Under the pieces are notes generated by a model. The model was not told the DNA's origin. It was given only the letters and a program-made list of their open reading frames with translations, and did not search any database. Below are positions 1,866 to 63,760 of a DNA stretch of 64,000 nucleotides, piece by piece. The translations under genes and the position numbers were made by a program. Numbering within the stretch: the stretch's first letter is position 1; each line of letters begins with the position of its first letter. The stretch comes from Candidatus Poribacteria bacterium (lineage in GTDB: Bacteria; Poribacteria; WGA-4E; WGA-3G): contig JAJEET010000019.1 of the NCBI GenBank assembly GCA_022820835.1, positions 1 to 64,000 on the forward strand. Reading direction: 5' to 3'.

Positions 1866-4253
1866 ATGAAACCTAATAAAAAATGTCTATTGAGTCTTTT
1901 CACTTTAATTTTTGTGTTCGTCCTCTCATGTGCGCGGGTGCAGAACGTTTCTGACAAACTGCCAACGCTGACAGCGGAACTTGCATCCGAAAAAGGTAAA
2001 ACTTCAGTCGTCCGCATTACGGGCGGAAACCTGATGAGAATAGGTGCAGGCAGCGGGTTCTTCATCCAACCCGATAAGATTGTAACGAACCTTCACGTCA
2101 TCGCGCGTCCGGGCCCCATTTTCGCGAAACTCAGCGGTGAGGACACAATTTGGATGGTCGAAGGTGTCACAGCGTACGATCTGGAGAACGACCTCGTCGT
2201 TTTGAAGGTTATGGGTGAAAGTCTCCCGCTCCCGCTCGGCAGCAGCGAAACTGTTAAAAAAGGTGAAACCGTTTACGCCATAGGCTACCCGGGCGGCGGA
2301 GAATATAAACTCACGGAGGGAACCGTACAAAACAGCCACTATCAAAATAAATGGCTCCAGACGACAGCCGATATTTCCAAGGGGAACAGTGGCGGTCCGA
2401 TGCTCAACGGCAACGGTGACGTTATCGGCATCAGTACTGCTGTGGACGATTCCTATAGTTATGCTATTCCGTCGGATACGCTCAAAACCTTGCTCTCTGC
2501 GTCTACGGAGGTTGAACCTCTGGCGGCGTGGTACAAACAGAAGCGTATTCGTGCGTATAGTTACCACGAGCGCGGTGAGGATAGATACAGCGATAAGCAG
2601 TATAGAGCCGCGATAGATGACCTCAATAAATCTATTGAGTTGGATGCCGAATATACACGGGCTTACGCGGCGCGCGGGTACATGTCGTCACACTACGGCG
2701 AGACGATTGTCAAGTATGGACGCATCGCTGATGCGCGACAACACTACCTCACAGCGATTGAGGACTATACGGAGACTATCAAATTAGATGCAGACGGCGA
2801 CGAGAACTATAACGGTCGCGGGCATACATACTGCCACTACGGTGAATACGAAGCCAATCAGGGGAATACAACGGAGGCGCAAAAACAGTATCTCGCGGCA
2901 ATTGAGGACTATACCAAAGCCATCAAATTGGATTCGGATGACAGTAGAAATTACAGCGGTCGCGCCTGGGCAAAGTCGCTCTTAGGGGAATTGAACGTTC
3001 AACAGGAAGAGCTCGGCAAAGCGCGAAAACAGTATCTCGCAGCGATCAAGGATTATACCAAAGCCATCAAATTGGACCCTGAAGACGATACAAACTACAA
3101 AGATCGTGGATGGGTGAAATACCTCGTCGGGGAATTGCGAACCGAGCAGGGGAAGACCGACGACGCACAGAAGTTTTATCAAGCGGCGATCGCTGATACC
3201 GAGCAAGCCATTCAACTCGATGCCGACAGAGCCAGTACCTATCATACCCGTGGTGTTGCGAGGGCTGCGCTCGGCGAATATGACGGCGCAATAGCGGATT
3301 TCGATACCGCTATTGAACACGATTCCGATTATACTGAAGCGTATCGCAGCCGCGCGGAAACGAAGCAGGCACTCGGTCAAGGAGAAGCAGCAAAGACAGA
3401 TTTTTTGAGATCGAAACAGTCTGTCGGTAAAGGCATCGTACCGTCACAGGAATTGGAAAACGCAGCAACCGAAATGGTACACATCCCCGCAGGTGAATTC
3501 CAGATGGGCAGCAATGAAATCACAGCAGCGATGCCCAGACACACCGTCCATCTTGACGCGTTCTATATCGACGCTTATGAGGTGACGAACGCACAATTCA
3601 AGGCGTTCATCGATGCGAATCCTGAGTGGCGCAAGAACAACATTCCGAGTGAATACCATAACGGTAACTACCTCAAACTCTGGGCAGGGAACGACTATCC
3701 GAGAGGGAAATCGAATCATCCGGTTGTCTATGTGAGTTGGTACGCAGCGATGGCGTATGCGAAATGGAAAGGCAAACGGCTTCCGACGGAAGCAGAATGG
3801 GAGAAAGCAGCGCGCGGCGGCATGACAGGTAGACGCTATGTCTGGGGTAATTCCCGTCATCCGGGTAAAGCGAACTATGGGTATTACGGGAAACACACGC
3901 GTCCCGTCGGGAGTTATCTACCGAACGGATACGGTTTGCACGATATGGGTGGGAATGTATGGGAACTGTGTTTGGATCGATATGATAGGAATTTCTACAG
4001 TCGGTCTCCGAAGGAGAATCCGGTTGCTGGTGTCCCGGATATTGAGGCGTTGATGGGAGATTTCACAAGTGTCAAGACCATACGCGTATCGCGTGGCGGT
4101 TCATGGAACACGCGCAGCTCTCCCGCGCAAGCGGCGAGTCGTGGGAATGATAAACCGACGAACACGAACAGTTGGCTCGGCTTCCGTTGCGCAAAAAGTG
4201 CTACGCCTCAGCAAAATACCGAGGCAGTTCCCTCAACTGACGATTTGAAATAA
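1866..4253 (+). CDS. Secreted trypsin-like serine protease with TPR repeats and C-terminal SUMF1/FGE-like domain
   Basis: Signal/lipoprotein-like N-terminus; TNLHVIA, ENDLVVLK, GNSGGPML triad motifs; TPR array; EMVHIPAGEFQMGS...EVTNAQF...RLPTEAEWEKAARGG...GGNVWE...RGGSW...GFRCA. Confidence 0.9.
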   Translation: MKPNKKCLLSLFTLIFVFVLSCARVQNVSDKLPTLTAELASEKGKTSVVRITGGNLMRIGAGSGFFIQPDKIVTNLHVIARPGPIFAKLSGEDTIWMVEGVTAYDLENDLVVLKVMGESLPLPLGSSETVKKGETVYAIGYPGGGEYKLTEGTVQNSHYQNKWLQTTADISKGNSGGPMLNGNGDVIGISTAVDDSYSYAIPSDTLKTLLSASTEVEPLAAWYKQKRIRAYSYHERGEDRYSDKQYRAAIDDLNKSIELDAEYTRAYAARGYMSSHYGETIVKYGRIADARQHYLTAIEDYTETIKLDADGDENYNGRGHTYCHYGEYEANQGNTTEAQKQYLAAIEDYTKAIKLDSDDSRNYSGRAWAKSLLGELNVQQEELGKARKQYLAAIKDYTKAIKLDPEDDTNYKDRGWVKYLVGELRTEQGKTDDAQKFYQAAIADTEQAIQLDADRASTYHTRGVARAALGEYDGAIADFDTAIEHDSDYTEAYRSRAETKQALGQGEAAKTDFLRSKQSVGKGIVPSQELENAATEMVHIPAGEFQMGSNEITAAMPRHTVHLDAFYIDAYEVTNAQFKAFIDANPEWRKNNIPSEYHNGNYLKLWAGNDYPRGKSNHPVVYVSWYAAMAYAKWKGKRLPTEAEWEKAARGGMTGRRYVWGNSRHPGKANYGYYGKHTRPVGSYLPNGYGLHDMGGNVWELCLDRYDRNFYSRSPKENPVAGVPDIEALMGDFTSVKTIRVSRGGSWNTRSSPAQAASRGNDKPTNTNSWLGFRCAKSATPQQNTEAVPSTDDLK

Positions 4254-4259
4254 AACGGG

Positions 4260-4283
4260 TAGGCGCGCTTTGCAAGCGCGCCT
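4260..4283. terminator. Bidirectional hairpin terminator between convergent genes
   Basis: TAGGCGCGCTTTGCAAGCGCGCCTA-type near-perfect palindrome between the 4253(+) and 4294(-) gene ends. Confidence 0.7.
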
Positions 4284-4293
4284 ATCAACAGAG

Positions 4294-5025
4294 CTACCCT
4301 TCTGCTTTTAACTTTCGGACTTCCTCTCTGGCACTTTGGAGGAGGTGCAACGTACTCGGAAAGAGCGCATAGAGTGCCTCGTAGTAGGCAAGGTATTCGT
4401 CTTCGTTGCCTTTGATTCTAAAGCCTCCAAACATCATTTTTGTCTCTCCCGCAACCACAATATCGACCTCCGGAATATCCCCAAACTGATGGACTAACTT
4501 CTCTCTGTAAATTTTGGCAAACAGTTCGGGATCATCGGTCTCCTCCATCAGTTTATCTTTCAGAAATCCGTCAAGATACTTCCGATTCGACTCGTTCGGC
4601 CAAAGAACATATCGTGCTTTGGCATAATTAATCAGTTCGTCAAGGGTTGTGATGAGTCCCCCGGGTGTCAGCAATTGTTTTCGTCGACGTTCCGCGACGA
4701 TATGAACGGCTGGAATGTTCCCGAATTGTTGGACGAGTTGTGCATGGAAATATTTGGCGTGTCGCTCAGGATTTTTCTCCTGAATCCAGTTATTGGGCAG
4801 TTCTAACTGCATCAGTTCCTGAACTTCTTCATCGCTGATGTCGTAGGTGAGATCACTGGTATCATAGAGGTCGTTTGGCAGGACAATTGGCTCTGGCGAT
4901 TCCGTTGCGTCCGGAGCTACCGAAACTGACGATTTCCTACCTTCAGGGTCTCCACAGCCAAGAAAGAAAGACAGACTGAAAAGACATACAAAAGCGGTCA
5001 AGCCTAAAAAATATCTTTTCACCAT
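4294..5025 (-). CDS. Hypothetical lipoprotein
   Basis: N-terminal LTAFVCLFSLSFFLGCGD lipobox-like signal; no family recognised. Confidence 0.65.
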   Translation of the reverse strand: MVKRYFLGLTAFVCLFSLSFFLGCGDPEGRKSSVSVAPDATESPEPIVLPNDLYDTSDLTYDISDEEVQELMQLELPNNWIQEKNPERHAKYFHAQLVQQFGNIPAVHIVAERRRKQLLTPGGLITTLDELINYAKARYVLWPNESNRKYLDGFLKDKLMEETDDPELFAKIYREKLVHQFGDIPEVDIVVAGETKMMFGGFRIKGNEDEYLAYYEALYALFPSTLHLLQSAREEVRKLKAEG

Positions 5026-5122
5026 TGTTCGGTTCTCCTTAGAAAAATAAAAGTGTGAAACGATTATAACATCAATTTCATAAATGATTCAAGAAGTTTT
5101 TGTCAGATGTCAGAAATTGCGT

Positions 5123-5151
5123 TTGACTTCCATAAAATTCTGTGCTATAGT
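5123..5151 (+). promoter_or_regulatory. Sigma70-type promoter
   Basis: TTGACT (5123-5128), 17-nt spacer, TATAGT (5146-5151), 6 nt before ATG 5158. Confidence 0.65.
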
Positions 5152-5157
5152 AGTCTC

Positions 5158-7200
5158 ATGCAAGAAGCATTGCTCAGCGTACAGAACCTCAAAACCTATT
5201 TTCGCACGCCAGACGGACTTGCCCGTGCCGTTGACGGCATCTCTTTCGAGATTGCGCCGAACGAGATTTTCGCGCTTGTCGGTGAGTCGGGGTGTGGTAA
5301 AAGCGTCACCGCGCTGTCTGTGATCCAACTCGTCGCGCAACCTGCCGGTTTTATCGCAGGGGGTGCCATTAACTATAACGGACAAGACATCACGCGTCTG
5401 CCAGAAGTCGAGAAACGGAAGATTCAAGGGAACGACATCGCCATGGTGTTCCAAGAACCGATGACCAGCCTGAACCCGGTTTTCACTATCGGTAGCCAGA
5501 TTTCGGAGGCGATCCGACAACACCAGAACCTCCGCGGTACTGCTGCACGGAACGCCGCTATTGAGATGCTTGATCTCGTCGGTATCCCTGAACCCGCTGC
5601 GCGTTACGATGAATATCCGCACCAGATGTCCGGCGGAATGAAACAGCGCGTCATGATTGCGATGGCGCTCTCCTGCCGTCCGGGGCTCCTCATCGCCGAT
5701 GAACCTACAACCGCGCTGGATGTTACGATACAGGCACAGATCCTCGAACTCATCCAACGCCTCCAGCAAGAATTGCAAATGGCGGTGCTACTGATTACAC
5801 ACGATTTAGGGGTTGTCGCGAACATTGCTGACCGTGTCGCTGTGATGTACGCGGGGAAGATCGCGGAGATGGGGACATGGGAGCAGCTCTACAAGACCCC
5901 GCAGCACCCGTACACCGTCAAGCTCCTGGAATCGACACCGGCTCGCGATAAACGCGGCACACAATTGCACACGATTACTGGTAGAGTTCCGAAAGCCACC
6001 GAATATAGCGACGGCTGCCGATTTGCCGATCGTTGTCCGACGGTCATGGACGGCTGCGAGACGATTCCACCTACATTGCACACTGTAAATGGGAGTGAAC
6101 ATCACGTCGCCTGCCATCTCTACAACTCCGAACCGCCTTTTAATGTTAAGATAGAGGGTGCTGCGAAATTGGAACTCGAAACGGATGCTGAGAAAATAGA
6201 AACGCCTCCGACACAGGCAGAAGGCACACAGTCGCAGCTTCAGGTGAAAGACCTATGTGTCCACTATCCGATTCAGAAGGGAATTTTTAAACGGACAGTC
6301 GGTTACGTCTATGCGGTTGATGATGTCACGCTTGATATTCCGCGCGGCAAAACGCTTGCACTCGTCGGTGAATCCGGTTCTGGAAAAACTTCCTTCGGTA
6401 AAGCCATCCTCCGGTTAGGCGTGCCTGTTAAAGGCGACCTCGTCTATGACGGTGTTAACATCGCAACTACCACGCGTCAGCAGATGCACCCCTATCGGAA
6501 ACGGATGCAGATTATCTTTCAGGATCCTTATGCATCCCTCAATCCTCGGATGACCGTCGGTGCCATTATCCAAGAAGGGATGCAGGCACACGGTATCGGT
6601 GAATCGGTTGACGAACGCGAGCATCGGGTCGCAGAACTGATGCAGCGTGTCGGTTTATCGCCGGATATGGTAACGCGCTACCCGCATGAGTTCTCTGGGG
6701 GTCAGCGGCAACGCATCGGTATTGCACGCTGTCTCGCTGTCGATCCGGAGTTCATTGTCTGCGATGAGGCGACGAGTGCGTTGGATGTGTCTGTCCAAGC
6801 GCAGATACTGAATTTGCTAAAATCGCTACAGAACGATTTTAATCTTACGTATCTCTTTATCACACACAATCTTTCCGTTGTCGAGTATTTCGCCGATGAG
6901 GTAGCGGTGATGTATCTCGGCAGAATCGTTGAGCGTGGCACAACAGAGGAGATTTTCGATTCACCGAAGCATCCTTATACGCGTGCCCTTCTCTCTGCTG
7001 TTCCGAAGATGGATCCGCAGACCGGCGTTGAAAAGATTCGGTTAGAGGGTGACGTGCCTTCACCGATCAATCGTCCATCTGGTTGCTACTTCCATCCACG
7101 CTGTCCAGAAGTTATGGCGGTGTGTGCGGACGAATACCCAGACGAAACGCTTTTCACAGAAACGCACTCATGCAACTGTTATTTGTATCGAGACGCATAG
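5158..7200 (+). CDS. Fused dual-NBD peptide/nickel ABC transporter ATP-binding protein (DppD-DppF type)
   Basis: Two Walker A ([20 protein letters not shown]), two signature motifs ([16 protein letters not shown]), oligopeptide-transporter C-terminal motif (CxFxxRCP / CYFHPRCPEV) twice. Confidence 0.93.
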   Translation: MQEALLSVQNLKTYFRTPDGLARAVDGISFEIAPNEIFALVGESGCGKSVTALSVIQLVAQPAGFIAGGAINYNGQDITRLPEVEKRKIQGNDIAMVFQEPMTSLNPVFTIGSQISEAIRQHQNLRGTAARNAAIEMLDLVGIPEPAARYDEYPHQMSGGMKQRVMIAMALSCRPGLLIADEPTTALDVTIQAQILELIQRLQQELQMAVLLITHDLGVVANIADRVAVMYAGKIAEMGTWEQLYKTPQHPYTVKLLESTPARDKRGTQLHTITGRVPKATEYSDGCRFADRCPTVMDGCETIPPTLHTVNGSEHHVACHLYNSEPPFNVKIEGAAKLELETDAEKIETPPTQAEGTQSQLQVKDLCVHYPIQKGIFKRTVGYVYAVDDVTLDIPRGKTLALVGESGSGKTSFGKAILRLGVPVKGDLVYDGVNIATTTRQQMHPYRKRMQIIFQDPYASLNPRMTVGAIIQEGMQAHGIGESVDEREHRVAELMQRVGLSPDMVTRYPHEFSGGQRQRIGIARCLAVDPEFIVCDEATSALDVSVQAQILNLLKSLQNDFNLTYLFITHNLSVVEYFADEVAVMYLGRIVERGTTEEIFDSPKHPYTRALLSAVPKMDPQTGVEKIRLEGDVPSPINRPSGCYFHPRCPEVMAVCADEYPDETLFTETHSCNCYLYRDA

Positions 7201-9297: not shown

Positions 9298-9355
9298 TAG
9301 CACTTACACAGCGCGTTCATAAGTCCCCCTGATAAGGGGGATTTAGGGGGTTTAA
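9298..9355. repeat. Interspersed CACTTAC...CCCCCTGATAAGGGGG element
   Basis: GCACTTACACAGCGCGTTCATAAGTCCCCCTGATAAGGGGGATTTAGGGGGTTT; related sequences at 34546-34675 and 55226-55282. Confidence 0.6.
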
Positions 9356-9403
9356 AATAAAATTTATCATCACGTGCTTTGTGTATGTCCTAATAGGAGA
9401 AAA

Positions 9404-10081
9404 ATGATTAAGCCCATTATCGCTGTCTGCTCCGTTTTTACAGTTTATGCCATCTTGACCAGTTACAACGGCGTGCCGATTGACCACGATCACGCTCTCG
9501 TGTTCATCATCGCACACGATGAGGGTGTCAACGATGCCGACAATTACGCCGGTATCATGCAGAAAAAGTGGGAGATATGGCGTAGCAAACAGGGCGATAT
9601 CCGCCATCTACCGAGGTATGTCCGAGAACTCGCTGGCGACCCGACACTCAATCCGCTCAAGGACCCGAAAGTCGATATTACCATCATCAAACGCTATTAC
9701 TATGACACACTCCAAAGAAAGTGGTACGCGTGGGACATCCATCCCGCACTCCAACTGATTTATGCCGATTTCGCTACACTGGTCGGGAGAGAGGCAGTCA
9801 AGGAGGTACAGAGACTCGTAGGCGTTGAAGCGGATGGTCAATGGGGGATGGGCACGGCGGATGCTGTTCGAGCGTTCAATGCCGACTTTGAAGCGAAACG
9901 TTCTCAGAACCCGGACTACGCGTGGAAGGTGTTCCTCCAATTTGATGCCCAAAAACGTGCCGTTTTCCGATCGTTAGCAAAGGCGAATCCAGAGAAATAT
10001 GCCGATCATCTTGAGAAGTGGCTCAAACGCTCGGACGACTTGAAGACCTATATGCAACCGGTTTTGACGGGGAAAAAATGA
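9404..10081 (+). CDS. Putative GH108-like / PG_binding_3 peptidoglycan-active protein
   Basis: AGGAG RBS; N-terminal signal anchor; VFIIAHDEGVNDADNYAG resembles the GH108 N-terminal motif; VQRLVGVEADGQWGMGTADAVRAFN resembles a peptidoglycan-binding repeat. Confidence 0.55.
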   Translation: MIKPIIAVCSVFTVYAILTSYNGVPIDHDHALVFIIAHDEGVNDADNYAGIMQKKWEIWRSKQGDIRHLPRYVRELAGDPTLNPLKDPKVDITIIKRYYYDTLQRKWYAWDIHPALQLIYADFATLVGREAVKEVQRLVGVEADGQWGMGTADAVRAFNADFEAKRSQNPDYAWKVFLQFDAQKRAVFRSLAKANPEKYADHLEKWLKRSDDLKTYMQPVLTGKK

Positions 10082-10109
10082 TAGGCAGTACTGTGCTGTC
10101 ATAGGATGA

Positions 10110-10322
10110 CTATAGAATTTCTTTCGTCTCTATAGGTTCACCAGCGTGTCGGGTTAGGTATTCAAGGACTTCCGCGTGCATTTTCTCTATCTCTGCCCGA
10201 TACCCACTTGAAACAAGAGAAAATTCTTCAGGGGTGGCTTTAACCCGCAATTGCAAGAGCAGATTTTGGAAGTACGCTATGCGTTGTTGACTTGTTTTGA
10301 GTTCTTTATCATCGTGAATCAT
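10110..10322 (-). CDS. Small hypothetical protein (70 aa)
   Basis: Intact compact ORF RIAYFQNLLLQLRVKATPEEFSLVSSGYRAEIEKMHAEVLEYLTRHAGEP; plausible coding composition. Confidence 0.55.
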   Translation of the reverse strand: MIHDDKELKTSQQRIAYFQNLLLQLRVKATPEEFSLVSSGYRAEIEKMHAEVLEYLTRHAGEPIETKEIL

Positions 10323-54301: not shown

Positions 54302-54844
54302 CTACAGAAGATTCGGATTTGCAGTCAGGATAGGGATTTTCTGAGTTTTAAAATCACCATCGTTTGTTATGAGAGTGAATCCGTCGTTTTTGCAGATTTC
54401 TGTTATGACTTGGTCATTGAAGTCGTAATCACCGGTGGCATAATCATTGAGCAGAGCGTTCACTGGTAGCGTTGTAAACCCACTTTCTATCCGTGCACAA
54501 TGCTTCATAGTCTGCTGAACATGATTGGCAATATCTTGAGCGACTGTCTTGAAATCTGAACTGCTGCGAAAAGTTTTGAAGGTGTTCGGATAGGACGAGG
54601 CATCTCTCCATTTCAACCTAGCGTAAGCATTAACAAATTCTGAAACAACAAGTACATCAATATAAATTCGGCTTTTTGCTCTCAACATACGGTTAAAGAC
54701 GCTTGCGTAGATAGACCTCCAATAGGATCTCGGTTTCGGCGGACCGTACAGATACAACCACATATTAGCATCCAGAAACAATTTGTCTTGTGAGGTGAAG
54801 TTATAGTAACGTACGTCAGATGCCTTGTATGTCATAGTCATCAT
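54302..54844 (-). CDS. PIN-domain protein (putative toxin)
   Basis: KLFLDANMWLYLY, VVSEFVNAYARLKW, DFNDQVITEICKNDGFTLITNDGDF: conserved acidic residues present. Confidence 0.8.
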   Translation of the reverse strand: MMTMTYKASDVRYYNFTSQDKLFLDANMWLYLYGPPKPRSYWRSIYASVFNRMLRAKSRIYIDVLVVSEFVNAYARLKWRDASSYPNTFKTFRSSSDFKTVAQDIANHVQQTMKHCARIESGFTTLPVNALLNDYATGDYDFNDQVITEICKNDGFTLITNDGDFKTQKIPILTANPNLL

Positions 54845-56280: not shown

Positions 56281-57375
56281 TTAATCTGAGTATGGGTCCG
56301 CAGCATCGCGGAGGGCATCCCCTAAGAAGTTGAAGGCGATGACGACGACAAGCACCGGTACTGCCGGAAAAATGAGCCACGGGTAGTGGAGCAGAACGGT
56401 GACGCGTTGCGCTTCCTCTAATAGCACTCCCCAACTCGTCATCGGTGGACGGATCCCTAAACCTAAGAAACTGAGTGCGGTTTCCCCGAGAATCATACCC
56501 GGTATAGCGAGTGTAGCGATAACGATGATATGGCTATAACACCCCGGCATCAGATGTTTTGTGATGATGTGCCAATGTCCGGCACCGGCAGCGCGTGCCG
56601 CCATCACGAAATCGCTCTCCCGATACGCCAAGACTTTCCCCCGTACCTGCCGTGCCAGTCCACCCCAACGAATGATCGACAAAATAACGGTAATCCCGAA
56701 ATAGATTTGAATGCTCGACCATCCCGGTGGGAGCGCGGCACCCAGAGCCATCCACAAGGGGATGTCCGGGAATGCAGATAAAACCTCAATAACACGTTGG
56801 ATGAGATTATCAACCCAACCGCCCCAATATCCAGATATGGTGCCGAGAATAGAACCGAGGACAATACTTAAAAAGACCCCGACGAGACCAAGCGTCATTG
56901 AGACGCGCGCCCCGTACATAATCCGCGAAAGCAGGTCACGCCCCATCCGATCGGTACCCAACAAGAACATGGGACCTGCGGAGCTGAAAAAATGTCGTTT
57001 TCCGTCGGTATCTTTGAAAAAGAACTCAACCGGATGCCGTTGCCTCATATCCTTGGTGAACTCTAACTCAAGACTCTCTGGATTCCGAACGGACTTCAAA
57101 CCGTAGACGTAGAACCCATCCTTGAGTGAGAAATGTAGGCGTTGCGGGGGGACGTGGCGCAGTCGCATGTTGATTTCGTTGTAGTGATACGGCGCGAAGA
57201 AGTCGGCACCGATGGCAAGCGCGTAAAAGAAAATTAGAATCGCACCGGAAATGACACCCATGCGGTTTTTACGGAACCGTCGCCATATCAGTTGACGGTA
57301 ACTCAGCTGCCCGCCATCTGTCCAAGAGTCGCCTGCCCCTTCAACTGCTTCTGCTGTCTCAATTGTAAGTTTCAT
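56281..57375 (-). CDS. Peptide ABC transporter permease (OppC-like)
   Basis: FLLGTDRMGRDLLSRIMYGARVSMTLGLVGVFLSIVLGSILGTISGYWGGWVD; AARAAGAGHWHIITKHLMP. Confidence 0.94.
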   Translation of the reverse strand: MKLTIETAEAVEGAGDSWTDGGQLSYRQLIWRRFRKNRMGVISGAILIFFYALAIGADFFAPYHYNEINMRLRHVPPQRLHFSLKDGFYVYGLKSVRNPESLELEFTKDMRQRHPVEFFFKDTDGKRHFFSSAGPMFLLGTDRMGRDLLSRIMYGARVSMTLGLVGVFLSIVLGSILGTISGYWGGWVDNLIQRVIEVLSAFPDIPLWMALGAALPPGWSSIQIYFGITVILSIIRWGGLARQVRGKVLAYRESDFVMAARAAGAGHWHIITKHLMPGCYSHIIVIATLAIPGMILGETALSFLGLGIRPPMTSWGVLLEEAQRVTVLLHYPWLIFPAVPVLVVVIAFNFLGDALRDAADPYSD

Positions 57376-57517
57376 ATTTTTTAAATATTGGGTTTCTGCT
57401 CCGATTTTTCCGATAAAAGAACCAAAAACGTAGCTCGTAATGAAATGGAGAGCGGATTATACAATAGCACGTTAAGTGCCAAATCCACTTCATCCAACCG
57501 CAAGGTAATATAAAAAA

Positions 57518-58504
57518 TCATTCATAACGGATCCTCGGATCGACCCACGCCAAGGCTATATCAGCAAACAGGTTGCCGATAACAAGCAGCAGGCTCAACA
57601 TCATAATCAACGTCCCGGCGAGGTAGATGTCCTCGTTCAGTAGACTGTTTAGGAGAATGGGGCCGACCGTCGGCAACCCTAATACGATGGAGACAATCGC
57701 TGAACCCGAGAGAATACCGGGTAGGCTCATCCCTAAAATACTGATAAGTGGGTTAATAGCGATACGAACAGCGTGTTTCGCGACCACGACTGTCTCTTTG
57801 AGTCCTTTGGCGCGTGCGGTTTGCACGAATGGCTGCCCTAAAACATCAAGCAGGTTACCACGCATGATACGCATTAGGCTTGCTGTGCCGTTAATACCGA
57901 CGACAATCACCGGAATCCAGAGGTGTTTGATGAGGTCATTGAGTTTACCCCACGTCCACGGTGCGCCTTCATAGTAAGCCGAGAAGAGTCCAAACAGCGG
58001 TACGCCGAAGATGTCAAACGCGAACACCATCAACGAGAGTGCTAAGAGGAACGCGGGGATTGACATCCCGACGAAACTGAGGAAGGTCAGAAAGTGGTCT
58101 GACCACTGGTATTGATGCGTGGCGGAATAGATACCGAGCGGAATTGCGACGATATAGGTAAAAATGAGCGATCCGATGGAGATGAGGAGCGTAAAGGCTA
58201 TCCTGTCCCATATTAGTTCATCAACTTCACGCTTATACTCGAACGACTCACCGAAGTTTCCACGGACAAAGCCGCTGATCCAGATGAGATAACGTTTCCA
58301 TAACGGTTCGTTCAACCCATAGCGTTCGCGTAATTCTTCGACTTGTGCGAGCGAACTACTATCGCCGAATTCTTCCTCTAACCGTTGGATTTCTCGGTCG
58401 AGGTAATCGCCTTGCGGGAGTTGGATGATAATAAAAGAGATAATAGAAATCGCCAGAAGTGTCGGCACAGCGATGAGACATCGGCGAATGATATAGGTAA
58501 TTAT
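57518..58504 (-). CDS. Peptide ABC transporter permease (OppB-like)
   Basis: (I)ITYIIRRCLIAVPTLLAISIISFIIIQLPQGDYL; YGLNEPLWKRYLIWISGFVRGNFGESF; TARAKGLKETVVVAKHAVRIAINPLI. Start apparently ATA at 58504; first canonical alternative is GTG at 58468. Confidence 0.92.
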   Translation of the reverse strand: MITYIIRRCLIAVPTLLAISIISFIIIQLPQGDYLDREIQRLEEEFGDSSSLAQVEELRERYGLNEPLWKRYLIWISGFVRGNFGESFEYKREVDELIWDRIAFTLLISIGSLIFTYIVAIPLGIYSATHQYQWSDHFLTFLSFVGMSIPAFLLALSLMVFAFDIFGVPLFGLFSAYYEGAPWTWGKLNDLIKHLWIPVIVVGINGTASLMRIMRGNLLDVLGQPFVQTARAKGLKETVVVAKHAVRIAINPLISILGMSLPGILSGSAIVSIVLGLPTVGPILLNSLLNEDIYLAGTLIMMLSLLLVIGNLFADIALAWVDPRIRYE

Positions 58505-58695: not shown

Positions 58696-60642
58696 CTATT
58701 CCTTAGATATCCAACACTGCTCAGGATAATGGGTTGCTGGCGTAACGATTGCCCACGGACCTAAGATGCCGTCGTTTGGTACGTTGTGAAAATGGTTCGC
58801 GACGACTAATAGCGATGGCGAACGTGCTGCGGAACCGAGGTGAAACGGTCCCTCGTCAATATGGATCTGGACTGCGTCTCGAACATACTGATGCCGTTTC
58901 TTCAGATCGGGTTCGCGTTTAATCTCATCGTATAGATCGAGAAGTTTCTTTAACGGTCCGGTGGGAGGTTCACCCTTTTCACCGCCGGTTTCATACCACT
59001 TCCCTACCTTCGGGTGCCAATACTTCGGGAGCGTTGGAAACACCCAATCCGGATAAGTGAAGAGGTCCATCTCCGCTTCACCGTGCATACTGATTGTGAA
59101 TTTTCCGAGTGTGCGGCGGAGGCTCAATTCAGCACCCGGTGGTGTATAGAGCAAAGTTTTCAATCCGAGTTGCTCCCATCCGTCTTGAATAATCAGCCCG
59201 ATGTCATTTTCTTGGCTGTTAAGGTTGGAACTTGGAACATCCATGAGCATCTCAATCGGTTCACCATCGGGACGCAATCTATAACCGTCCTTATTGCGTT
59301 CTGTGAGCCCCATTTCATCAAGGAGTCGGTTGCCTGCGGCGATATCGAAGTCGGCATCGGCGCGCTTCCACGCCTCAAAGAGCGTCTGTCCGTCATCATC
59401 AGCGAAGTGCCAACCCTCTTGGCTGACGGTTGCGGCTTGCGGTTCGAGCAATCCGCGCCATGCGATCTCGTTACATTTCTCACGGTCGATGCCGTAAGCG
59501 AGTGCTTTTCGGAAGCGTTGGTCTCGGATGAGCTTTCTTAACACGGGGTCAGGTGCAGTCCAGTTAATGAGGATAGCGGGTTGCGCGCCTGCTGTGCTTT
59601 TCCAACGCCGCACCTCATACCCACCTTTCTTCTGACCTTTCAGGTAGAGTGTGAGGTCTCGGAGCTCCATGCCGCGATATTGGCAATCAATCTCGCCAGC
59701 GAGGATTTTAAGCACGCGGACCTGTGGTTCTGGGACTAAACTGGTCTTGATTTTGTCGATGTAAGGGAGTTGCCTGCCGAGTGTATCGACGACGTAGTAG
59801 TACGGATTCCGTTCGAGTTCGACACGGAATCCTCCCTTTTCATATTTCGTTAACCGCCAGGGCCACAGCGTCGGACGTTCCGGGTTCTGGTGCGGTATAT
59901 TCTCCTTCTCAAATTGGATGAAATCGGTGTATTCGGGGTTAGCGTCTGGGTGAAATTGCACCATGTGGTGCTCCGGAATGTTATACTGATTGCACCACCA
60001 AAAACCGGTCGCCAACCAGAGCGGTACGAGCCAGTTGGGACCTGCGAATTTCATCACAATCGTATAATCATCAGGCGTTTCGACCTCCATCGGGATGCCA
60101 TTGACCTTACACCAGACAGGCGGATTGTATGGATGCCGTTCATCGAGACAGAGCTGATAGTAGAACGCAAATGACACTGAGGTATAAGGGTGTCCGTCCG
60201 ACCACTTCACGCCTTTGCGTAGATGTAACGTTAGGGTACTACCGTCTTCGTTAAAATCCCACGATTCTGCCAGTCCGGGTTCCAAACCAGAGGCATCGAA
60301 TTTCCAACGGATGAGCGGGGCATAACCAGCAGTCATCTTCCATGTTCCTAACTCTGGATGCGTGTGAAACCGGTGCCACGTTCCACCGTAGGGACCAGGA
60401 CCTTCATACCCGTCAAAGTCGGTTTTAGCGACGAGAGGGTTCTCTGGTAGCCGTTCCGAAAGCGGTGGGAGTTCGCCTGCGGCGACCTGTTTTGCCCACA
60501 TCGGTGCCTCTTTCGCCGCAATCCCACGCGGGAAATCGGAGGTATCTTCTAACGGGTTTCCCGAACACCCGACGATGAAAATCAGCAAGGGAAGCAGCAA
60601 TTTAATGAAACTCAGCGCACTCGCTTTGTGCATCTCAAACAT
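58696..60642 (-). CDS. ABC transporter family 5 extracellular solute-binding protein
   Basis: Lipoprotein signal LLLPLLIFIVGCSG; LAESWDFNEDGSTLTLHLRKGVKWSDGHPYTSVSFAF; RFRKALAYGIDREKCNE. Confidence 0.94.
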   Translation of the reverse strand: MFEMHKASALSFIKLLLPLLIFIVGCSGNPLEDTSDFPRGIAAKEAPMWAKQVAAGELPPLSERLPENPLVAKTDFDGYEGPGPYGGTWHRFHTHPELGTWKMTAGYAPLIRWKFDASGLEPGLAESWDFNEDGSTLTLHLRKGVKWSDGHPYTSVSFAFYYQLCLDERHPYNPPVWCKVNGIPMEVETPDDYTIVMKFAGPNWLVPLWLATGFWWCNQYNIPEHHMVQFHPDANPEYTDFIQFEKENIPHQNPERPTLWPWRLTKYEKGGFRVELERNPYYYVVDTLGRQLPYIDKIKTSLVPEPQVRVLKILAGEIDCQYRGMELRDLTLYLKGQKKGGYEVRRWKSTAGAQPAILINWTAPDPVLRKLIRDQRFRKALAYGIDREKCNEIAWRGLLEPQAATVSQEGWHFADDDGQTLFEAWKRADADFDIAAGNRLLDEMGLTERNKDGYRLRPDGEPIEMLMDVPSSNLNSQENDIGLIIQDGWEQLGLKTLLYTPPGAELSLRRTLGKFTISMHGEAEMDLFTYPDWVFPTLPKYWHPKVGKWYETGGEKGEPPTGPLKKLLDLYDEIKREPDLKKRHQYVRDAVQIHIDEGPFHLGSAARSPSLLVVANHFHNVPNDGILGPWAIVTPATHYPEQCWISKE

Positions 60643-61594
60643 CCTCCTCGCGTCTGACGAGGGAATCCGTAAATCTGTTCATATCTTCAGAGACACGTTC
60701 AAAAAGTTCGCCAATAGATTTCGCATGCGGTATGGTCATTTCATATCTCAATTCCTTGCCGTAAATGTTAGTGACTTTGTGTCGGAACTTTAAAAGTTCT
60801 TCCAGTTCGCGGCATGTATTTTCGGAGATGACGGGTGGACGTTCTGGTCGCTTTTCTGCCATTTGTGCAAGTAGATTTTTATGCCATTGACTTCCTCTCG
60901 GCACGTGCATATCCACCTCACTGCCAATCCGTTCAAAAATCCGCTCTATACCCATATAGATATCGGCGAGATCTGTAGCGATTGTGTTTTCAATGAACTC
61001 TGTAACATCAATGGGAACCACCTCAATCTTTTCCAATCCTCTTTGAATTCTTTCAAGTGTTCCTTCTATTTTGTCAAGTTCGTCGTTGATGCGTTGTGTG
61101 AGTCTTTTGCGATTCATTTCGTAAATGTCTCCCTCCTCGGTGGGGAAAACCTGTCGCTGTAAGTGTTTGTAAAATGTCTGCCACACGTCTGTCGTATTAT
61201 TGGGGGGCCGCGTCCCTTTTTCGATAGGGATCGCTTGGTGTTTCATTCGTTCTCGGAAAAGCCCTTTCGACGTGTCAAAGTTAACGAAGTCTATTTTGAA
61301 GGGAGCATCGAAATATACAACCTTTCCATAAGCTTTATCGTAGGCATCGTTGGAGAGTCCTGACACAGCGATATCAATATCGGACCTATTTGTGAACGCC
61401 ATCGGATCTGTGAGTGAACCGAAGACAGAGACTTGGGTTGCACCGAACTCTTCGTAGAGCAGTGTTGCTACTTGATATGCAGTGTCCCATGCTCGATGGA
61501 GCAGCCCTTCGTCCATCACGCGACTTTTCCACACTGCTTCCAATCGTTTTCTGCATGCTGCGAGTTCAGTTGGTGAGATTTTTTGCTTTGACAT
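60635..61594 (-). CDS. MNT nucleotidyltransferase-HEPN (HepT-like) fusion protein
   Basis: VSVFGSLTDPMAFTNRSDIDIAV (GS...DxD) in N-half; C-half ELEELLKFRHKVTNIYGKELRYE resembles HepT Rx4HxY with His replaced by Asn. Confidence 0.8.
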   Translation of the reverse strand: MSKQKISPTELAACRKRLEAVWKSRVMDEGLLHRAWDTAYQVATLLYEEFGATQVSVFGSLTDPMAFTNRSDIDIAVSGLSNDAYDKAYGKVVYFDAPFKIDFVNFDTSKGLFRERMKHQAIPIEKGTRPPNNTTDVWQTFYKHLQRQVFPTEEGDIYEMNRKRLTQRINDELDKIEGTLERIQRGLEKIEVVPIDVTEFIENTIATDLADIYMGIERIFERIGSEVDMHVPRGSQWHKNLLAQMAEKRPERPPVISENTCRELEELLKFRHKVTNIYGKELRYEMTIPHAKSIGELFERVSEDMNRFTDSLVRREEDV

Positions 61595-61596
61595 CG

Positions 61597-62631
61597 CTAT
61601 ACTCCTTGCAACTCCAACGTATCACTGAGGTGACAAGCCACCTGAACACCCGTTGCAACCTCTTGAAGTTCCGGGGTCTCCTGTCTACAGATATCGGTTG
61701 CATAACGGCATCGTGGGTGGAAGTAGCAACCTGTCGGTGGATTTGATGGATCAGGGACGTCGCCTTCAAGTCGGATATGCTCACGCTTCCGCTGCGCGTT
61801 CGGGTCGGGGAGTGGTACAGCGGAGATGAGTGCTTCTGTGTACGGATGCTTCGGTGATTGATAGAGCGTTTCGGCATCGCTGATCTCCACAATTTTGCCG
61901 AGGTACATCACAGCGACGCGGTCACTGATGTGTTCAACCACACTCAAGTCGTGTGCGATAAAGATATAGGAGAGTTGAAACTTTTCGCGTAGTTCTGCTA
62001 ATAGGTTGAGAATTTGTGCTTGTACGGAGACATCTAATGCGGAGACCGGTTCATCTGCGACGATGAGTTCGGGTTGGAGGGCTAAGGCGCGTGCGATGCC
62101 GATGCGTTGACGCTGCCCGCCGCTGAAAGCGTGCGGATACCGACGCATATCCTGCGATCTCAAGCCGACAGATTCGAGCAGTTCTACAATCCGATCTTGG
62201 AGTGCCGATCCTTTTTCGGTACGATTGACACGCATCGGTTCGCCGACAATATCTGCTACGGTCATACGTGGGTTGAGAGAAGCGTGCGGGTCTTGGAAGA
62301 TCATCTGGATACGTCTCCGAAAAGGACGCATCTCGCTGTGCGTCAATTTTGCGAGGTCTACCTGTTCTTCTCCGAAAGCGAAACTCCCGCTTGTTGGTGG
62401 AATGAGGCGGAGGATGCACCGTCCGGCGGTTGTTTTTCCGCAACCGCTTTCGCCGACGAGTCCGAGGGTTTCGCCGCGTTGTACGTCGAAACTAATCCCG
62501 TCCACGGCTTTCACATAGCCGACGGTGCGTTGAAAGATCCCTTTCTGTATCGGGAAATATTTTCGGAGGTCGTTCACCTGAAGCAGTTTTGTCTTTTTAA
62601 CTATGGGCATCTGGTCGTCGTTCCACTTCAT
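61597..62631 (-). CDS. Peptide ABC transporter ATP-binding protein (OppF-like)
   Basis: [50 protein letters not shown]. Confidence 0.95.
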
Positions 62632-62731: not shown

Positions 62732-63760
62732 TTATCCTTGTGAGTCTGTGTGGAGCCAACATCGCACAGCGTGTGCGCCATTACCGGTTGTCTTGAGTTC
62801 GGGCATCCGATCACATTCTGGTATCCGATCCGGGCAACGCGGTTGGAATGAACACCCTCCCGGCAGTGCCAACGGATGTGGCACTGTCCCTGGTATAGAG
62901 GGTAATGTTTTTTCGACCGTTCTACCGAGGACCGGGATGGATTTGAGCAAGCCTTGTGTATACGGGTGGAGCGGGTTATAGAAGATGTCGTCAACGCTCC
63001 CGCGTTCAACGACGCGTCCTGAATACATGACGACGACTTCATCAGCGAGGTCTGCGATGACACCGAGGTCGTGTGTGATGAGCATAATCGCCATCCCGAA
63101 TTCCGCTTGGAGTTCCTGCATGAGACCAAGCACCTGCGCTTGGATCGTTACATCAAGTGCGGTTGTCGGTTCATCAGCGATGAGCAGTGCGGGTGAGCAG
63201 CAAAGCGCCATTGCGATCATGACGCGCTGACGCATCCCGCCGGAGAGTTGGTGCGGGTACTCATCAACGCGCTGTATTGGCGCAGGGATCCCGACACGTT
63301 GGAGCATCTTAATCGCACGTTCACGCGCCGTTTTTTTATCGACTTGTTGGTGTAAAGCAACCGCTTCGGCGATCTGGTTTCCAACAGTATAAACAGGATT
63401 AAGCGATGTCATCGGTTCTTGGAAAATGATGGCAATTTCGTTGCCTCGGATCTGACGGATCAATTCGCTCTTCGGTGGTACCTGTGCGATGTTCAACGGC
63501 TCAGCATCGTCGTTACGATAGAACAGGATCTCACCGGCTTCAATCCTCCCCGGGGACGGTACCAATTGGAGTAGCGAGAGACCGGTGATACTTTTTCCGC
63601 AACCGCTCTCGCCGACAACGCCAACGGTCTGTCCGCGTGCAATAGAGAAACTGACATCATTCACAGCGTTTACGATGCCGTCGTCTGTTGGAAAAACCGT
63701 CTTTAAACCGGAAATCTCCAGAAGCGGTTTTTGGTGAGATGTGTTTTGTTCTGATGCCAT
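62732..63760 (-). CDS. Peptide ABC transporter ATP-binding protein (OppD-like)
   Basis: [73 protein letters not shown]. Confidence 0.95.

Follow-up and report, generated by a model that had tools for sequence, protein, structure and literature searches.

A conserved single-chain MNT-HEPN protein of the HepT-like_2 family in a poribacterial opp operon

The locus and the two halves of the protein

We analysed a stretch of 64,000 nts (the window) from a Candidatus Poribacteria bacterium, of the sponge-symbiont type, in which a dipeptide/oligopeptide ABC transporter (opp) operon carries one gene that joins the partners of a toxin–antitoxin system known as two genes (Table 1). The ORF begins with ATG and its residues match exactly those quoted in the sequence-only reading that had singled it out. 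The oppA start overlaps this gene by 8 nts or, with the second ATG, leaves a 1-nt gap. Downstream of the operon we also observed a gene for a 180-aa PIN-domain protein, VapC-like (PF01850, E=1e-6; 54302-54844, minus strand).

Table 1. The MNT-HEPN gene, its domains and key residues, and the neighbouring opp genes (window positions)
Feature	Position	Strand	Evidence or remarks
Single-chain MNT-HEPN gene	60635..61594	(-)	319 aa, ATG to TGA
Nucleotidyltransferase (MNT-like) half, residues 30-128	61211..61507	(-)	weak Pfam/PADLOC matches; AF2, Foldseek to MntA/MNT
GSX11DXD motif, G59-D74 (catalytic D72, D74)	61373..61420	(-)	61/61 homologues
Third catalytic Asp, D102	61289..61291	(-)	60/61 homologues
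HEPN domain, PF20797 HepT-like_2, residues 205-311	60662..60982	(-)	Pfam; AF2/Foldseek to HepT
E217, acidic, HEPN helix 2	60944..60946	(-)	106/107 PF20797 domains
H238, helix-2/helix-3 insert, candidate alternative catalytic His	60881..60883	(-)	103/107, fused and unfused
R252, invariant insert Arg	60839..60841	(-)	107/107 PF20797 domains
R271-H272, start of RX4[H/N/Y]XY	60779..60784	(-)	104/107 and 105/107 PF20797 domains
N276 (AAC), RX4H histidine position	60767..60769	(-)	N/H/Y variable; Asn 31/31 in opp-slot clade
Y278, predicted AMP-acceptor tyrosine	60761..60763	(-)	103/107; two of the other four are gaps
oppF-type ABC ATPase	61597..62625	(-)	directly upstream, 2-nt gap; Pfam ABC_tran + oligo_HPY; conserved neighbour
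oppA-type solute-binding protein	58696..60642	(-)	directly downstream; SBP_bac_5 E=4e-52; conserved neighbour
oppD-type ABC ATPase	62732..63760	(-)	
oppB and oppC permeases	56281..58468	(-)	57518-58468, 56281-57375

The N-terminal half was matched weakly by Polbeta/NTP_transf_2 in Pfam (Polbeta E=1.7e-4, under the cut-off) and by PDC-S09 in PADLOC (2e-5). The nucleotidyltransferase (NTase) motif previously recognized there is present, but its spacing had to be corrected to GSX11DXD, one residue more than the GSX10DXD of MntA; the X11 spacing was found in 82/86 fused proteins. We take D102 to be the equivalent of MntA D71. The C-terminal half matched PF20797 (HepT-like_2) with E=3.2e-27 and 95.2 bits against a gathering cut-off of 27, the whole helical half extending over residues ~153-319.

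The AlphaFold (AF2) model, obtained with 60 homologues (pLDDT 87.4), showed an NTase fold and a HEPN four-helix bundle in tandem, with a low-confidence linker at ~130–150 and an insert in the HEPN bundle at ~227–257. Foldseek matched the N-terminal half to MntA/MNT antitoxins (7bxo, 8xeo) and the C-terminal half to HepT/HEPN toxins (7bxo_G, probability 1.00, TMt 0.71; TMt 0.79 for the HEPN half alone), AF0298 (2hsb) being also among the fold matches. According to both, the motif of the HEPN half lies at the end of helix 3 of the bundle. The proposed union of MNT and HEPN in a single chain was thus borne out by the Pfam profile for the C-terminal half and by AlphaFold and Foldseek for both halves. 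A profile search of PDB sequences returned a sole weak match, to HepT (6m6u, E=0.21).

Identification rests on the family profile and not on the motif, since the RHx3NxY codon pattern taken alone is near chance level in the genome of origin (36 matches, 28 in a reversed control). A chance motif was ruled out, as profile and fold both match and 58/59 genomes of the family encode a homologue. Homologues that are nearly identical were found in MAGs of Candidatus Poribacteria, and PF20797 is present in 70/85 genomes of the phylum. Concerning a phage origin, we obtained no match in the phage collection and no good viral fold match. The window protein is a genuine, conserved one-chain MNT–HEPN member of a little-studied HEPN family; although Pfam holds this family, the literature searched contained no experiments on any PF20797 protein.

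Residues of the HEPN half and the state of position 276

The HEPN half was compared across 107 distinct PF20797 domains. Fused proteins contributed 81 from the window's family and 6 from other families; a further 18, from outside the family, are unfused or not resolved as fused, and 2 are partial. From these we defined the conserved set E217, H238, R252, R271-H272 and Y278, which the window protein carries in full. Of the key positions only 276 varies, as N, H or Y. The codon read directly in the window is AAC, within TTC CGA CAC AAA GTC ACT AAC ATT TAC (FRHKVTNIY); the sequence-only reading was therefore right in placing Asn at the RX4HXY histidine position and in describing the Tyr as kept. 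Position 276 is N62/Y9/H8/other 2 in the 81 fused proteins of the window's family, H5/N1 in those of other families and H12/N4/Y1 in the 17 unfused members that could be resolved.

An Rx4-6H motif is often present across the HEPN superfamily, yet not always. The window protein lacks it (R271-x4-N276, no His at 276-278), whereas R271, H272, E217 and the alternative His, H238, are conserved. On the terms that the sequence-only reading had itself set for its refutation, a His elsewhere, it is contradicted in part: H238 recurs in nearly all domains, at an insert position. In some HEPN families without the motif His, such as those of AF0298 and AbiV, the helix-2/helix-3 insert contributes a different conserved His (PMC3710099); H238 is located in this insert. 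In the Legionella pneumophila HEPN, R98A and H103A of RX4HXY barely affect RNase activity, the work being done by a helix-2 Gln/Glu Mg2+ site (PMC11586414). Class II HEPN/MNT pairs lack RX4H and retain the Tyr, and the AMP acceptor of HepT is Tyr104 (PMC7641770), from which we infer the acceptor role of Y278.

The claim of a 'degenerate' site detoxified by fusion did not withstand these comparisons. Asn is common in the family while the other conserved polar residues are near-invariant in the 107 domains. Asn276 also occurs in unfused pairs (RHVVRNVY), with overlapping two-gene pairs of a Gloeothece plasmid and of Poribacteria G070 as examples, His is found in the unfused pairs of Pseudanabaena, Skermanella and Sinorhizobium, and fused homologues of other poribacterial families retain His (RHLFRHTY). 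Thus Asn is neither a consequence nor a mark of fusion, and MNT–HEPN fusion alone did not cost the RX4H histidine.

A PF20797 tree built with the position-276 column masked requires 10 changes among N/H/Y at this position. A fused His clade groups with the fused Asn clade of the window protein, a provisional placement with support of 83 and long branches. As the homologue alignment showed, all 31 members of the opp-slot clade have Asn, and such clade-wide presence rules out a recent mutation of a canonical site. Values of dN/dS were 0.12–0.22 overall and similar in both halves, indicating purifying selection while the gene is retained and ruling out a pseudogene.

Judged from these alignments, N276 is a permitted variant in PF20797 HepT-like_2 and not a lesion, and lack of activity cannot be concluded from it. 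His at 276 may be the ancestral catalytic state, since it is found in most of the resolved unfused members (12/17). Rather than a toxin that was disarmed recently, the protein is probably a functional and conserved relative of known systems. Two fused paralogues in another genome (L058 3976-4932 and 7609-8541, G008) have the FRH..Y motif destroyed, with the NTase motif intact and the frame open; unlike the window copy, these look truly degenerate in their HEPN site.

Copies of the gene and its slot in the opp operon

At 28 loci the gene adjoins oppF and, where the contig extends far enough, precedes oppA; in one genus, one to three copies in tandem lie between oppF and an SDR gene. The match table placed the slot gene in about 29/38 same-genus genomes. 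In the other nine, oppF is next to oppA, both intact, and the slot gene is absent. Two of these nine empty sites hold an in-frame miniature composed of the first 20–29 and the last about 40 residues, and at a third (L108) the first 20 residues of the gene product have been joined to the signal peptide of OppA. The internal deletions at the oppF-oppA junctions of L103, L107 and L108 all preserve the reading frame up to oppA; these in-frame scars, three cases only, may reflect translational coupling.

On a tree of OppF and OppA, presence and absence of the gene need 7 changes, of which at least 5 are forced by well-supported branches. Given the deletion scars, the pattern is most naturally read as repeated loss; that some genomes gained the gene in this slot is less likely, because three of the 'empty' sites hold in-frame remnants. 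Such repeated loss across same-genus genomes indicates a gene that is dispensable and not addictive, though long established in the opp operon.

The genome of the window encodes five full-length fused copies, the window gene and four on contig C137, plus a short fragment. Three of those on C137 (L045, G000) are arranged head to tail at 2921-5739 with 1–4 nt between genes, and the fourth lies nearby at 9339-10280; the four copies read N, Y, N, N at position 276. Similar tandem arrays were observed in several other genomes (L048, L050, L051, L053). The C137 array is directly adjoined by the gene of a 340-aa RRXRR protein (PF14239, E=5e-28; L045 5943-6965, minus strand), presumably IscB/IsrB-like. 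Two homologues elsewhere, L021 and L035, carry one in-frame stop each (TAA in G034, TGA in G016) and represent pseudogenes or assembly errors.

Relation to known systems and possible functions

The best structural matches are the type VII MntA-HepT systems, for which S. oneidensis SO_3165/SO_3166 (PMC7641770) and L. pneumophila (PMC11586414) served as references. Like these, the window protein combines an MNT-type NTase with a HEPN helical bundle, MNT first, and has a conserved Tyr at +2 from the H/N position. It differs in being one ORF instead of two separate genes, in its GSX11DXD (GSX10DXD in MntA) and RX4NXY (RX4HXY in HepT) motifs and in its HEPN family, PF20797 instead of PF01934/PF08780. 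The Gloeothece plasmid pair WP_013335028/WP_013335027 shares the HEPN family, the E/H/R/RH/Y set, Asn at 276 and, in the partner MNT, GSX11DXD; the PF20797 two-gene pairs are, however, separate overlapping plasmid genes, annotated as hypothetical protein and NTase. MNT-HEPN fusions viewed as domesticated toxin–antitoxin systems (PMC3710099; the pAgK84 fusion, PMC2701414) are similarly single-chain and have lost RX4-6H. In contrast to them, the window protein has in its HEPN half every polar residue conserved in its unfused relatives, is lineage-wide in Poribacteria, and occurs in tandem arrays and in the opp operon slot.

Both halves are present, each with the conserved polar residues of its family and each under purifying selection. 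The reading we favour, at slightly less than an even chance, is a single-chain, type-VII-like MNT-HEPN protein in which Tyr278 is self-AMPylated, the RNA-acting HEPN site silenced and N276 permitted. Its NTase half probably AMPylates its own Tyr278, and would do so with ATP, in cis or across a dimer. More tentatively, this modification might keep silent an RNA-acting site predicted to consist of E217, H238, R252, R271 and H272, for which the histidine at position 276 would not be needed. As antitoxin and toxin are one chain, we would expect a stress or defence switch under its own control instead of an addiction module. The PF20797 match, the HepT and MntA folds, the conservation of D72, D74 and D102 and the near-invariant HEPN polar set support this reading, as do the unfused relatives, which are overlapping MNT and HEPN pairs, the drift of position 276 alone, the fused proteins with His and unfused pairs with Asn, the low dN/dS of both halves, the nine losses that left oppF and oppA intact, and the RNase activity kept by the Legionella mutants. 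It is weakened by the His276 of most unfused members and by the L058 paralogues, which are motif-less yet open. We consider it unlikely that this lineage-wide protein of the opp slot and tandem arrays is a one-chain type VII system in the form of a self-AMPylating HEPN ribonuclease with an H238/E217/R271/H272 site.

The favoured reading is weakened, too, by a published generalisation: in HEPNs fused to MNT the RNase residues are typically missing, and these proteins have probably been domesticated as regulators (Anantharaman et al. 2013, PMC3710099), so that motif loss with a regulatory role, the generic idea of the sequence-only reading, was already proposed in 2013. This leads to the main rival, which we regard as possible though rather doubtful: a domesticated adenylyltransferase whose HEPN half, without RNase activity, binds substrate or regulates, and whose NTase modifies another target, possibly linked to peptide uptake. 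The fixation of Asn276 in the opp-slot clade, the conserved place inside the opp operon and the inseparability of toxin and antitoxin in one chain would fit such a protein. A mere scaffold, however, would not be expected to keep the HEPN polar set of unfused pair members; RX4HXY is moreover retained in fused relatives, and nine genomes have oppF and oppA without the gene.

A degenerate toxin that was detoxified by fusion and loss of its catalytic His and is now self-modifying, as first proposed, appears quite improbable. Asn at the His position with Tyr kept, and His as the commoner state in unfused relatives, speak for it, but Asn also exists in unfused pairs and His or Tyr in fused proteins, the site changed repeatedly on the tree, and the RX4H His is not needed in the Legionella enzyme. 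Very improbable, in our estimate, is a non-catalytic HEPN half that binds RNA, blocks translation and is silenced by AMPylation of Tyr278: motif-less HEPN proteins scored toxic in a genome-scale screen, known here through its citation in PMC3710099, yet the invariant polar residues suggest chemistry and not binding alone.

Whether a HepT-like_2 protein is active or dead cannot simply be read off position 276. One-chain homologues found in nature have His (L070, L073), Asn (the window protein) or Tyr (L003:1483–2439) there and provide a ready comparison for the residues behind HEPN RNases. A canonical MntA–HepT pair in two genes (GSX10DXD and RX4HXY) is present on contig C77 of the window's own genome, a useful internal contrast to the fused copies. 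Finally, outside the window, a HepT-like gene (PF01934; L130 1471-1848, minus strand; G000:C21:about 73,100) with the RX4HXY motif RDQIVHAY lies beside two large ORFs, one of them for an AAA-type ATPase, in a possible defence island.
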